Of a DNA stretch of 53,233 nt, positions 4,915 through 30,282 are shown piece after piece. The stretch is taken from contig JAGCOF010000033.1 in NCBI GenBank assembly GCA_017645585.1, positions 1-53,233 of the forward strand, in the 5' to 3' direction. Below the pieces are notes generated by a model. That model was not told the origin of the DNA. It saw only the letters and a program-made list of their open reading frames with translations, and made no database searches. Source of the stretch: Bacteroidales bacterium (lineage in GTDB: Bacteria > Bacteroidota > Bacteroidia > Bacteroidales > P3). Position 1 is the first letter of the stretch; the number at the start of each line of letters is the position of its first letter. Both the position numbers and the translations under genes were made by a program.

Positions 4915-5214
4915 TATTTATATCGTGCACGACCTATCCGTATCGGCGCCGCACCGACACCGTATCTACACCGTCTTTTCTCCGACTGCAGTCGGACTTG
5001 AGTCGGACCACACTCGGACTTGAGTCGGACCACAGTCGGAGGGGGCGCGGCATCAAAGTGGGGTATTGTGCTCTGAAACAGTGATTATTAACGCGCTGGA
5101 AACACGCTGTTTCCTGTTTTTGTCCGACAAAGAGGCTTTCTGGGAGTAGGTTGGAGGTAGAACTGACAACTGACAACTAACAACCGATAACTATTTATAT
5201 CGTGCACGACCTAT
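4915..5214 (+). repeat. Dispersed TCGGAC element, copy A (full length)
   Basis: A ~300 bp intergenic element bounded by two same-orientation copies of TATTTATATCGTGCACGACC (4915 and 5192), each with the palindrome TCGTGCACGA (4923-4932, 5200-5209). Inside, TCCGACTGCAGTCGGA (4981-4996) starts an array in which TCGGA(C/G) recurs every 11 bp to 5041. A distal motif TTTTTGTCCGACAAA lies at 5117-5131. A 7-bp repeat (AACTGAC type, 5160-5190) abuts the right end. The element starts 39 bp after the topB stop. No transposase is present. Related copies are at 13657, 18759, 24314 and 36358. Confidence 0.85.
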
Positions 5215-13656: not shown

Positions 13657-13962
13657 ATTTATGTCGTGCACGACCTAATCGTATCAACACCGTGGATGCA
13701 CCGTCTTTTGTCCGACTGCAGTCGGACATCACTCGGACCATAGTCGGACTTGACTCGGACTTCAGTCGGACTTGGTGGGTCTTCAGCGTTGAAAATCAAC
13801 CCTATGACTTGTGTTTTATGCTATGTGTGTTGATATTCAGTATTTTATATGATAATTCCCGTCTATTGCGTTTCTGCTGTCCTGTCCGCTGCTATGGCTC
13901 GGGGACCCTCCAGGAAGCTCCTTCTTATCCCAAGAAATACCAAATAGGTCGTGCGCGATATA
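13657..13962 (+). repeat. Dispersed TCGGAC element, copy B (inverted right end)
   Basis: The left end ATTTATGTCGTGCACGACC (13657) contains the full 12-bp palindrome GTCGTGCACGAC. The hairpin-like GTCCGACTGCAGTCGGAC (13710-13727) opens an array with TCGGAC every 11 bp to ~13772. The right end differs from the other copies: it is the inverted form TAGGTCGTGCGCGATATA (13945-13962), with one base changed in the palindrome. The internal TTTGTCCGACAAA block is missing and the interior between ~13780 and 13940 is unrelated to copies A, D and E. No gene is seen in 13580-14030. Confidence 0.8.
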
Positions 13963-14015
13963 TTTTTCGGAGAGATTTATTATGCTAAAAAGGATACGGT
14001 TTTGACAAAAAGTTG

Positions 14016-18758: not shown

Positions 18759-18820
18759 GTCCGACCAAGGTCCGACTGATGTCCGAGTTTTGTCCGACTG
18801 ATGTCCGACTGTGGTCGGAG
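18759..18820 (-). repeat. Dispersed TCGGAC element, copy C (core array only)
   Basis: Read on the minus strand, a CTCCGACCACAGTCGGAC hairpin-like start is followed by TCGGAC at exact 11-bp steps (five hexamers). Neither the GTCGTGCACGAC ends nor the TTTGTCCGACAAA block is present. The array sits between the divergent MFS and thioesterase genes, just upstream of the MFS -33 box, where it could influence that promoter. Confidence 0.75.
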
Positions 18821-24313: not shown

Positions 24314-24607
24314 ATTTATGTCGTGCACGACATATTTGTACCAACCACGAGGGAAGACCGTGTTTTGTCCGACTGCGGTCGGACTTTGGTCGGACCACAG
24401 TCGGAGTTGAGTCGGACATGAGTCGGAGGGAGTGGGGTGATGTTCCGACGTTTTTGTTGTTTATTATGTGGTTGTTAGCATATTTGGTTGCCCTTGTGGC
24501 CTGTTTTTGACCGACAAACGGCAATTTCAGGAGCTTTTTGAGGCCGGACCGACCACCACCAAACGGCTGCTGAAAATCGATTTATGTCGTGCACGACCTA
24601 ATTTTTT
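24314..24607 (+). repeat. Dispersed TCGGAC element, copy D (full length)
   Basis: Left end ATTTATGTCGTGCACGACAT (24314) and right end GATTTATGTCGTGCACGACC (24579) are direct repeats, each with the perfect palindrome GTCGTGCACGAC. The array starts with GTCCGACTGCGGTCGGAC (24367-24384) and continues at 11-bp steps to ~24428. The distal block is CTGTTTTTGACCGACAAAC, then TTTCAGGAG and a GACCGACCACCA segment shared with copy E. No gene is seen between 24229 and 24718. The element precedes the moxR-bat operon by about 110 bp. Confidence 0.85.
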
Positions 24608-28492: not shown

Positions 28493-29542
28493 ATGATTCA
28501 TTTCGAACATAAAGAATATCTGTGGCTGCTGCTTGTGGTGGCGGTGCTGGGTTTGCTGTGGGGCTACTCCCTGTGGCGCAACCGTCGCCGCCTGGCTGCC
28601 TGGGCCGATACGCCGATGTTCCCGCGACTCATTCCCGACCGTTCGGGCTGGCGTCCTGCCTTCAAAATGACCCTCACACTTCTGGGCCTCGGCCTGCTGG
28701 TGGTAGCGTTGGCCAATCCGCAGTTCGGCACCCGCATCGAGAAAGGCAAACGCGCCGGCAGCGACGTGGCTATCTGCCTCGACCTCAGTAACAGCATGAT
28801 GGCTGAGGATATACAGCCCAACCGTCTGGAACGCAGTAAACGTGTGGTGACCAACCTGCTGAACTCCTTTGCCGGCGACCGCGTCAGCCTGGTGGCCTTT
28901 GCCGGCACCAGCTTCATACAGATGCCCCTCACCGGCGACTACAGCGCCGCCAAGCTCTTCCTCGACGACATGGATTGCAGCATGATTTCAGAGCAGGGCA
29001 CCGCCATTGGCGACGCTATAGAGAAGGCCATGCAGACCCTTGGCTACGGCGATGAGGAGCGCGAGTGGCAGAAAGGCAAGAACCGCGCCATTATCGTCAT
29101 CAGCGACGGTGAGAACCACGAGGACGATGCCGTCGGTGCCGCTCGCAGCGCCGCCAAGGAGGGTGTGCGTGTGTGCACTATCGGCATGGGTCTGCCTGAA
29201 GGTTCGCCCATCCCGGAATACGACAGCCGTGGACGCAAGAACAACTACAAGCGCGAGTCGGGTGGTAGCATCATTATGACCCGCCTCAATGAGCAGATGC
29301 TCCGCGAAGTGGCTGCGGCCGGCAACGGCGTGTATGTGCGCGCCAGCAACGCCGGCAGCGGCTTGGGCGACATTACCAACCTCATTGCGGGCTTGGACAA
29401 GGAGGAGTTCGGCGAGGCACAGTTTGCTGCCTATGAAAGCCGCTACATGTATCCCCTTGCTGCCGGCTTGCTCTGTCTTCTGGCCGAGGTGCTCCTCTTC
29501 GAGCGCCGCAACCGCAAATGGAATTTAGACGATATGCTATGA
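28493..29542 (+). CDS. batB: BatB, von Willebrand factor A membrane protein
   Basis: A paralogue of BatA, 349 residues. Two membrane segments lie near the N-terminus (~10-26, 57-75), with one at the C-terminus. The VWA domain has a slightly altered metal site, DLSNS (97-101), followed by GTAIGDAIEKAM and VISDGENHE. The region GSIIMTRLNEQML is the expected BatB second half. The TGA overlaps the batC ATG (29539-29542), implying coupled translation. Confidence 0.92.
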   Translation: MIHFEHKEYLWLLLVVAVLGLLWGYSLWRNRRRLAAWADTPMFPRLIPDRSGWRPAFKMTLTLLGLGLLVVALANPQFGTRIEKGKRAGSDVAICLDLSNSMMAEDIQPNRLERSKRVVTNLLNSFAGDRVSLVAFAGTSFIQMPLTGDYSAAKLFLDDMDCSMISEQGTAIGDAIEKAMQTLGYGDEEREWQKGKNRAIIVISDGENHEDDAVGAARSAAKEGVRVCTIGMGLPEGSPIPEYDSRGRKNNYKRESGGSIIMTRLNEQMLREVAAAGNGVYVRASNAGSGLGDITNLIAGLDKEEFGEAQFAAYESRYMYPLAAGLLCLLAEVLLFERRNRKWNLDDML

Positions 29543-30282
29543 AAAAGATACTCACCATAATTACCTTGCTCGTTCTCTGCTTCTCGGCATCGGCGCAGGC
29601 CAGCCGTCATCAGCTGCGCGAAGGCAACCGCGCCTACAACAAGCAGCGCTATGACGATTCAGAGGTGGCCTACCGCAGGGCCCTCGAACGGGACTCTACC
29701 CACTACCGTGGGCAGTACAACTTGGCCAATGCCCTCTACCGGCAGGAAAAGTACACCGAGGCCGCCAGCCACTACCAGCAGGCCCTCGGCAGTCAGAATA
29801 TCACCAAGAAACAGCGTGCCCAGGCCCTGCACAATCAGGGTAACAGTTACTTGAAGGCCGCACAGCAGTCGGATCAGATGGAAGGCTTGCAACAGGCTGT
29901 CAACAGCTATCAAGAAGCCCTGAAACTCGACCCCAAGAACGAGGACACTCGCTACAACCTCGCCTATGCCCGCCGCCTGATGCAACAGCAGCAACAAAAT
30001 CAGCAACAACAGCAGAACCAAAATCAGCAGCAGCAAAACCAGCAGCAACAGCAGGACCAACAGCAACAGCAGCAACAAGACCAGCAAAATCAACAACAAC
30101 AGCAACAGGACCGCCAGCAACAGCAAGACCAGCAGCAACAGCAGAACCAACCCCAAAACCGCAAGCGTGAAGATGCTGAGCGCATGCTGGAGGCTGTCAA
30201 GAACAATGAGCGCCAAACCCTGCGCGAGAAGAACCGCGCCGACCAGCCTGTGCGTGTCCAGAAAACAGACAAAGATTGGTAA
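29539..30282 (+). CDS. batC: BatC, TPR protein with Gln-rich tail
   Basis: A 247-residue periplasmic TPR protein. The signal peptide ends near SASAQA (~19). TPR units span ~22-150 (NRAYNKQRYDDSEVAYRRAL, YNLANALYRQEKYTEAASHY, NQGNSYL..., DTRYNLAYARR). A 59-residue Gln/Asn tract (~149-207) follows, then a short conserved basic tail (RKREDAERMLEAVKNNERQT). The Gln tract is typical of BatC but long here, coded by mixed CAG/CAA. It probably links BatA/BatB to BatD/BatE in the periplasm. It overlaps batB by 4 bp. Confidence 0.88.
   Translation: MKKILTIITLLVLCFSASAQASRHQLREGNRAYNKQRYDDSEVAYRRALERDSTHYRGQYNLANALYRQEKYTEAASHYQQALGSQNITKKQRAQALHNQGNSYLKAAQQSDQMEGLQQAVNSYQEALKLDPKNEDTRYNLAYARRLMQQQQQNQQQQQNQNQQQQNQQQQQDQQQQQQQDQQNQQQQQQDRQQQQDQQQQQNQPQNRKREDAERMLEAVKNNERQTLREKNRADQPVRVQKTDKDW
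29983..30159 (+). repeat. CAG/CAA repeat tract in batC
   Basis: About 59 codons almost entirely Gln, with Asn, Asp and occasional Arg interruptions. Codon mixing (CAG/CAA/AAC/AAT/GAC) suggests it is old or under selection against slippage. Confidence 0.85.

Follow-up and report, generated by a model that had tools for sequence, protein, structure and literature searches.

Bacterial intergenic repeats are usually defined by their sequence. The window analysed here, a contig of 53,233 nucleotides from an uncultured gut Bacteroidales lineage, contains dispersed intergenic copies of about 300 bp in which TCGGA motifs recur every 11 bp, i.e., once per turn of the DNA helix, which raises the question of what these copies are and what holds their period constant. 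The assembly that holds the window (genome G000) comprises 1.93 Mb in 62 contigs and is 83% complete, and the setting is that of an ordinary chromosome, with genes for a topoisomerase, SecA, RuvC and tyrosyl-tRNA synthetase. Genes were called with a simple hexamer-based caller; a Pfam scan of 40 window genes identified a type IX sorting domain in several proteins and no transposase or integrase. No tRNA was found in the window, and no Rfam 15 family matched it at the gathering score. A blastn comparison of the first copy (element A) with 50,697 phage and 72,556 plasmid records returned no match, and the exact end motif described below was present in none of the viral contigs; a phage or plasmid origin was therefore rejected. 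Nothing ties the copies to a known transposon or to an rRNA-like gene. Elsewhere in the window, a CAG/CAA-rich repeat (29970-30168) lies inside a TPR-protein gene (29539-30282) and probably represents a glutamine-rich stretch.

Architecture and register of the copies

The initial annotation of the window had described four copies of about 300 bp and one core-only copy, all of which were found at the positions that it gave. Element A extends from palindrome to palindrome at 4918-5214 on the forward strand (277 bp site to site). Its left end palindrome (4918-4937) is followed by the central dyad TCCGACTGCAGTCGGA (4981-4996), five TCGGAS units at 11-bp register on the forward strand (4992-5041), the landmark TGTCCGACAAA (5121-5131), which is present in 21 of 49 full copies at no more than two mismatches, and the right end palindrome (5195-5214). 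Elements B (13659-13963) and D (24316-24601), both on the forward strand and between divergent genes, carry five-unit forward arrays at 13722-13771 and 24379-24428, respectively; the right end of element B (13944-13963) is the degenerate one among the eight window ends. Element E (36361-36658, forward strand; 36358-36662 as first delimited) starts 7 bp past the stop codon at 36353, and its five-unit forward array (36424-36473) consists of four TCGGA motifs and one ACGGA, the second unit being ACGGAC, all in register. The core-only inverted array (18759-18820, reverse strand) is without end palindromes. A sixth intergenic stretch with an 11-bp period, located at 48242-48301 by a sequence-blind lag scan, is built of the unrelated unit ACGCTACCCTG.

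The full copies follow one order: a palindrome of about 20 bp of the TTATRTCGTGCACGACMTAA type, which recurs at the other end of each full copy; a left arm of CACCGT units; the dyad GTCCGAC-TGCR-GTCGGAC; a run of five GTCGGAS units separated by 4 bp each; a middle part of low conservation; in the copies that have it, the TGTCCGACAAA landmark; often degenerate 7-bp repeats; and the second palindrome, after which comes a short T-run. The 7-bp repeats occupy the right quarter of the full elements (for example GACAACT / GACCACC at 5160-5190 of the window). The earlier account of the extent of the element had missed both the pairing of the end palindromes and the continuation of the register through the dyad into the inverted left arm. 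Its TCGGAC/TCGGAG hexamers do recur every 11 bp, and the unit is better described as the 7-bp GTCGGAC/G plus 4 bp. Its statement that full copies closely follow a stop codon or precede a promoter stood, as to the stop codon, for two copies only.

The histogram of TCGGA-TCGGA distances bears out the 11-bp recurrence in all five copies: 18, 14, 9 and 5 cases were counted in the window at 11, 22, 33 and 44 bp, respectively, and none or one at each of the other distances between 6 and 45 bp. Runs of four units occurred eight times in the window and never in 100 first-order Markov simulations. Among 324 units of G000 selected for the presence of CGGA, the first G of GTCGGA was conserved at 77% and the T at 94%. 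The register also crosses the dyad, since the left-arm CCG is in phase 0 (modulo 11) with the right-arm CGG in 188 of 227 cases in G000, and it is kept despite the reversed polarity of the left arm in three other genomes of the genus (phase 0 in 138 of 223 cases in G010, 44 of 74 in G012 and 9 of 10 in G002). It is weaker in G009 (7 of 22 in phase 0, a small sample in which merged arms may distort the count) and shifted in G020 (none in phase 0 and 10 of 21 in phase 1, likewise a small sample).

In an alignment of 49 copies framed by two palindromes, the end cores had a mean pairwise identity of 0.976, the five hexamers one of 0.89-0.97 and the spacers one of 0.63-0.85, and the middle dropped to 0.46. 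Because the identity of hexamers and end cores exceeds that of spacers and middle, motif and spacing appear to be kept more than the overall sequence, in agreement with the earlier proposal that selection acts on the position of the hexamers and leaves the spacers free. Site to site, 10 of these copies measure 267 bp and 22 measure 277 or 278 bp, and the other 17 are spread over 14 further lengths. The 17 distinct lengths are consistent with an 11-bp period (Rayleigh p=0.0006, R=0.66), and among all periods scanned 11.1 gave the best fit. Length steps of 11 bp can, however, arise from the loss or gain of units alone. The distance from end site to array was 63, 74, 85 or 96 bp in 46 of the 49 copies and one base off in the other three.

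End palindromes and dispersal

The end pattern matched G000 119 times per strand at no more than three mismatches, compared with two matches for the reversed control. Around arrays and palindromes, the latter drawn from 100 of the 238 strand-matches, we took 68 stretches of the genome, which together with the window hold 63 arrays of at least three exact units (one locus, L199, supplies two of them as its two arms). Two palindromes frame 49 of the 63 arrays; of the 14 without such a frame, two have one recognisable end and one that is decayed, as judged by eye. Conversely, at L171 and L209 an end pair surrounds an array whose exact units are too few for this set. As judged by eye, the palindromes of these stretches are paired, and those that stand alone are near contig ends or have a partner that has decayed.

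The same palindromes also enclose a second, unlike cargo, an inverted 11-mer of the GGGACAACA type with ends 387-408 bp apart. Five complete copies share 0.79-0.90 identity inside, and their flanks 0.34-0.53 in 9 of 10 pairs; in the remaining pair, the flanks are 0.72 alike. Insides that are alike between mostly unrelated flanks provide the strongest indication that what the palindromes delimit is a moving unit. Nevertheless, some copies may not have inserted independently, given this pair and the repeated modules that certain flanks have in common as far as the palindrome. The second cargo was located at L142, L191, L196, L203 and L172 and, in part, at the contig ends of L143, L147, L154 and L170, and is thus a probable cause of breaks in the assembly. 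A further dispersed module (ACCTCCCCGCC..GGCGGTAATCTATAAATC) adjoins the palindromes, whether left or right, with one and the same end facing inward, as seen by eye in the flanks of L148, L164, L168, L173, L182, L202, L204, L207 and others. The intergenic regions of G000 look like mosaics of repeat modules.

Beyond G000, 17 of the 23 arrays of G012 lie between two such end sites, mostly with different central bases (by eye). The exact end pattern, with which variants would be missed, was present in two of 59 genomes of the genus, G000 (105 matches) and G012 (5), and a variant like TACATCGTACACGATATAG lies beside an array of G036 (L025). No ends were seen around the array copies of G010, in which the repeated part is an inverted array of about 110 bp only. 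As read from these sequences, mobility is supported in G000 and G012, and the full copies look like delimited, dispersed, MITE-like mobile units with paired end palindromes. The earlier statement that they are not a standard insertion sequence agrees with the absence of transposase Pfam domains among the 40 window genes scanned and was incomplete, since the copies are delimited, dispersed and mobile-looking, with paired ends. No target-site duplication was detected (best p 0.0013 among 2304 tests), no Y1/RAYT transposase (Y1_Tnp) matched in G000 at its 83% completeness, and no end pair around gene-sized DNA that could represent a parent element was seen by eye among the 100 of 238 strand-matches.

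The ends are near-palindromes that can be read both as direct and as inverted repeats, and the consensus flanks favour the direct reading. At the variable stem positions of the left and right sites, complementary pairs were within 0.06 of the expectation from base frequencies, and two right ends out of 49 that were folded gave -0.4 and -3.8 kcal/mol (z 0.20 and -0.48). With no covariation at these positions and such weak folds, hairpin ends were rejected, and so was the reading of end palindrome plus T-run as an intrinsic terminator, since the two folded right ends lack a stable hairpin. We read the end palindromes as probable duplex sites for a dimeric protein, and not as hairpins or terminators.

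One period and many unit sequences in the genus

Four-unit TCGGA arrays, with one mismatch allowed, were found in 19 of 59 genomes of the genus including G000, and in 14 of the 34 of good quality; 11 of the 19 have at least five matches and eight only one or two. The reversed control of the pattern gave one to three matches in five genomes of the genus. Of 197 genomes from the rest of the order, five gave one or two matches each, and three matched the control. In viral contigs, four-unit arrays of TCGGA numbered 27 at 11 bp, 17 at 10 bp and 5 at 13 bp, and two control motifs at 11 bp reached similar counts (20 for AGGCT and 30 for GCTGA). The idea that TCGGA 11-mers recur across bacteria and phages was accordingly rejected, and matches outside the genus were treated as background; the phenomenon is one of copy number inside the genus and not of the motif in general. 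In a wide scan, at least 96 TCGGA stretches with 11-bp spacing were found, 39 of those 96 in an open frame, and in other taxa TCGGAG 11-bp arrays were seemingly inside ORFs (L047, L058, L063, L066, L068 and L084, by eye).

Within the genus, the unit sequence changes from species to species. The arrays of G010, G020 and G029 are built of TCGGACCATCC, TCGGAGCTACC and TCGGAGAACAA, respectively, and those of G012, G009 and G002 of mixtures of units. Additionally, G010 has a second 11-bp family, CTTAGGATATG, and G000 has further 11-bp units, among them CTCGGGATAAC, GGATACCAAGA and TTGAGTAGGGG. Downstream of arrays, a loosely shared CTGATTTACAGGTGGTTATGA-like block was noticed by eye in G002, G009, G012, G024 and G070 and, reversed, in G029.

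Most arrays beyond the window were found via TCGGA patterns. Independent of that motif are the lag scan (44-base window, 28 matches, lags 6-18) and the comparison of G010 based on any 11-bp array that is described below. In 381 kb of G010, the lag scan detected 45 intergenic stretches at lag 11 and 0-8 at the other lags; in the window, the counts were six at lag 11, four at lag 7, one at lag 9 and zero at the rest. The samples of the lag scan were the first 20 kb of chosen contigs and are non-random. Among seven further genomes of the genus (40 kb each), lag 11 was found 14 times, in six of the seven, compared with six cases at lag 7, three at lag 14 and 0-2 at the others, and three outgroup genomes (116 kb) had four stretches at lag 10 and no stretch at lag 11. 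In G001, G004, G014 and G016, lag-11 stretches are present and a TCGGA match is absent. The 11-bp spacing is kept in the other genomic copies, its loss there being one of the refutations named in the initial annotation. The persistence of the period while unit sequences differ within and between genomes points to spacing as the selected quantity. The second commonest intergenic period in the parts of G000 examined was lag 7 (32 cases, against 81 at lag 11).

A constant period with a free sequence is also what would be expected of intrinsically curved DNA that positions supercoils, in which an 11-bp repeat would phase small bends and help to place plectoneme tips. The constancy of the period among units that differ within and between genomes agrees with such a role. 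A/T tracts of four or more are nonetheless present in only 10 of 324 units in G000 and 1 of 213 in G010, which speaks against curvature by A-tracts; a purely helical requirement would also permit 10-bp units, which are rare here, and the conservation of the hexamers would be left unexplained. We regard this role as distinctly improbable.

Location, known systems and a possible reader of the arrays

No array overlapped a called gene in G000 (0 of 68 under a looser definition than that of the 63-array set), G010 (0 of 44) or G012 (0 of 23). The G000 arrays lie between tandem (30), divergent (28) and convergent (5) genes or at contig edges (5); the corresponding tandem, divergent and convergent counts were 28, 13 and 3 in G010 and 13, 4 and 4 in G012, the rest being at contig edges. 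With respect to tandem genes, same and opposite orientations were balanced in G000 (16:14) and G012 (7:6). A larger, array-selected set of G010 gave 8 same and 20 opposite, and in its 381-kb stretch 5 of 15 tandem cases were on the same strand (p=0.30). No promoter or orientation rule was detected in G000, relative to a background set of intergenic regions that had likewise been selected near arrays. In G010, the TCGGA family agreed with GC skew in 14 of 25 cases at 2 kb; with this count and the gene orientation in the 381-kb stretch, the earlier suggestion of a chromosome-organising repeat found no support for this family.

A different pattern was observed for the second family of G010. The direct CTTAGGATATG arrays (contigs C10, C19 and C1; L341-L360) are located at local GC-skew peaks, and their polarity agrees with the flanking skew in 15 of 15 cases at 2, 4 and 8 kb and in 14 of 15 at 15 kb, leaving out one array without clear polarity. 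Downstream of the arrays, the oriented skew amounts to 0.28 over the first 500 bp and has faded by about 3 kb, and it is visible at third codon positions on both gene strands; in absolute terms it exceeds that of other intergenic regions (17 vs 88, p=1.7e-5). In small samples from elsewhere, arrays agreed with skew in 6 of 7 cases in G001, G004, G014 and G016 and in 9 of 21 in G009, G029, G000 and G012.

The inverted arms raise the alternative that the arrays act as hairpins of RNA or single-stranded DNA, in the manner of REPINs or of attenuators. Three window cores do fold better than shuffled sequences (z -2.6 to -5.3, both strands), and the one G029 copy folded forms a long, almost perfect hairpin (z -10.1 and -12.9), a result better predicted by a hairpin model than by one of a protein-binding platform. 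However, one G010 copy folds much like its shuffles (z -0.12 on one strand and -1.95 on the other), so that the property common to the arrays looks like register and not structure, and orientation to genes is inconsistent in G000. By inspection, the left-arm CACCGT units of G000 are not complementary to their right-arm partners. REPINs and REP sequences with RAYTs resemble the present copies, in the parts of the reports drawn on here, as short, inverted, extragenic, multi-copy families (PMC3116915; PMC3733652); the arms here are instead multi-unit 11-bp arrays, with ends that fold weakly. The RAYT partner (Y1 HUH) had no match in the array-rich genomes G000, G009 (95% complete) and G029 (97% complete). 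Y1_Tnp was present in 12 of 19 genomes with arrays and in 27 of 40 others of the genus, and mobilisation of the RAYT/REPIN type was rejected because this presence is not associated with arrays. On this evidence, we consider hairpin action unlikely.

Arrays of this form could also be ordinary operators of a single transcription factor that define a non-mobile regulon. The portion of the Streptomyces PhoP study used here describes 11-nt direct repeat units, with initial protection of four core units and, at higher protein concentration, protection of weaker outer units as well (PMC7866108). The present arrays resemble such PHO boxes in their 11-nt head-to-tail direct units, conserved core and weaker outer units, and the 7+4 grammar of OmpR/PhoB operator arrays is found here at the level of sequence; many arrays, moreover, lie upstream of genes. 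They differ in being inverted about a dyad, in their tens of copies, in their location within dispersed units and in being untied to promoters. Since 12 of 135 arrays lie between convergent genes, positions common to several species were not borne out and, in G000, the end palindromes travel with the arrays, a regulon of this kind seems highly improbable. It is our guess, drawn from this likeness, that the genus may use a PhoP-like regulator of the OmpR/PhoB type on the arrays.

Positional orthology was assessed between G000 and G010. In a comparison biased towards arrays, both genomes had one at two junctions, G010 only at one and neither at ten (p=0.038). This signal was not borne out in the 381 kb of G010 that had been taken without selection for individual arrays, where TCGGA arrays were co-located in 0 of 1 two-sided and 0 of 7 one-sided comparisons, which cover six distinct array junctions of G000. 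When any 11-bp array was counted, with repeated junctions retained, co-location was seen in the single two-sided comparison (1 of 1, p=0.067) and in 2 of the 8 one-sided ones (p=1).

The closest known system of those compared is BrickBuilt of Porphyromonas gingivalis, reported as a 23-nt minisatellite nested in a MITE with 12-nt IS5-like TIRs that match IS elements (PMC4596501). As far as the cited parts of that report go, both are intergenic, non-coding tandem minisatellites of Bacteroidales within a MITE-like unit that has a leader and a tail, with a variable number of units and no transposase inside (PMC4596501). In contrast to the 23-nt unit of BrickBuilt (PMC4596501), the units here are of 11 bp, in two inverted arms and one register; the ends are palindromes of about 20 bp of the TTATRTCGTGCACGACMTAA type whose parent was not found, instead of an IS5-like GAGACC TIR; and the period persists across the genus while the units change. 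We file the copies as MITE-like and BrickBuilt-like and as members of neither, since the defining feature of each was looked for and was absent. A text search of the literature with TCGTGCACGA retrieved nothing related by title, and searches on 11-bp repeats, minisatellites and MITEs retrieved no description of these units, an absence claimed within those searches only.

The neutral reading of BrickBuilt, so far as its source was consulted, is matched by a further explanation, namely a selfish, minisatellite-bearing mobile unit with no bound protein, in which copying errors would favour slippage by 11 bp and arrays would be by-products of dispersal. The dispersal of copies in mostly unrelated flanks, the eight TCGGA comparisons without co-location, the non-significant result for any 11-bp array, the several unrelated 11-bp units within one genome and the lack of an orientation rule in G000 all agree with it. 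Slippage should nevertheless spread the periods, yet hardly any stretches were detected at lags 10 and 12 in the samples of the genus; hexamers and end cores, at 0.89-0.98 identity against 0.46 in the middle, and the register kept across the dyad in G000 also argue against it. We hold this selfish unit to be possible, with more doubt than confidence.

The explanation that we favour, to which we assign an even chance, is that the copies of about 300 bp are non-autonomous mobile units that carry a platform for a putative protein, which would bind on one face of the DNA in steps of 11 bp. Mobility is supported by the 49 of 63 framed arrays, the excess of end matches over the control and the shared ends of the second cargo. 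Constraint is seen in the identities of end cores and hexamers, in the fit of the lengths to a period of 11 and in the constancy of that period in the genus; the arrays lie outside called genes, and a duplex is favoured over a hairpin because the ends lack covariation and fold weakly, the G010 copy is shuffle-like and CACCGT is not complementary to its partners. The palindrome of about 20 bp at each end would be recognised by a dimeric enzyme acting in trans, and the cargo would consist of some eight to ten units of 11 bp, arranged as an inverted array in phase with the helix. The array would act as duplex DNA along one face of which subunits of the predicted protein line up head to tail, one for each helical turn, in the way that a regulator of the OmpR/PhoB type covers 11-bp direct repeats. 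Such binding, whether it serves the mobility of the unit or the regulation of its neighbours, may be what holds the period at 11.

A wider and rather doubtful proposal is that the genus possesses an intergenic code, independent of sequence and with a fixed period of 11 bp, in which the units differ between species and several unrelated ones coexist in a genome. Mobile units would spread this code, and its reader would be DNA topology or a protein that co-evolves with it and senses helical phase. If this code were true, it would amount to a fast-evolving system of nucleoid organisation or transcription insulation. In G010, 26 TCGGA arrays were counted in 381 kb containing 100 intergenic regions of at least 100 bp, so a reader of the arrays would touch much of the chromosome. 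The conserved quantity here looks like the spacing of one helical turn, which is maintained even as the sequences diverge among species, and selection on helical phase thereby becomes a testable idea. The end palindromes, in turn, may provide a handle on the mobilising enzyme in an uncultured gut lineage.
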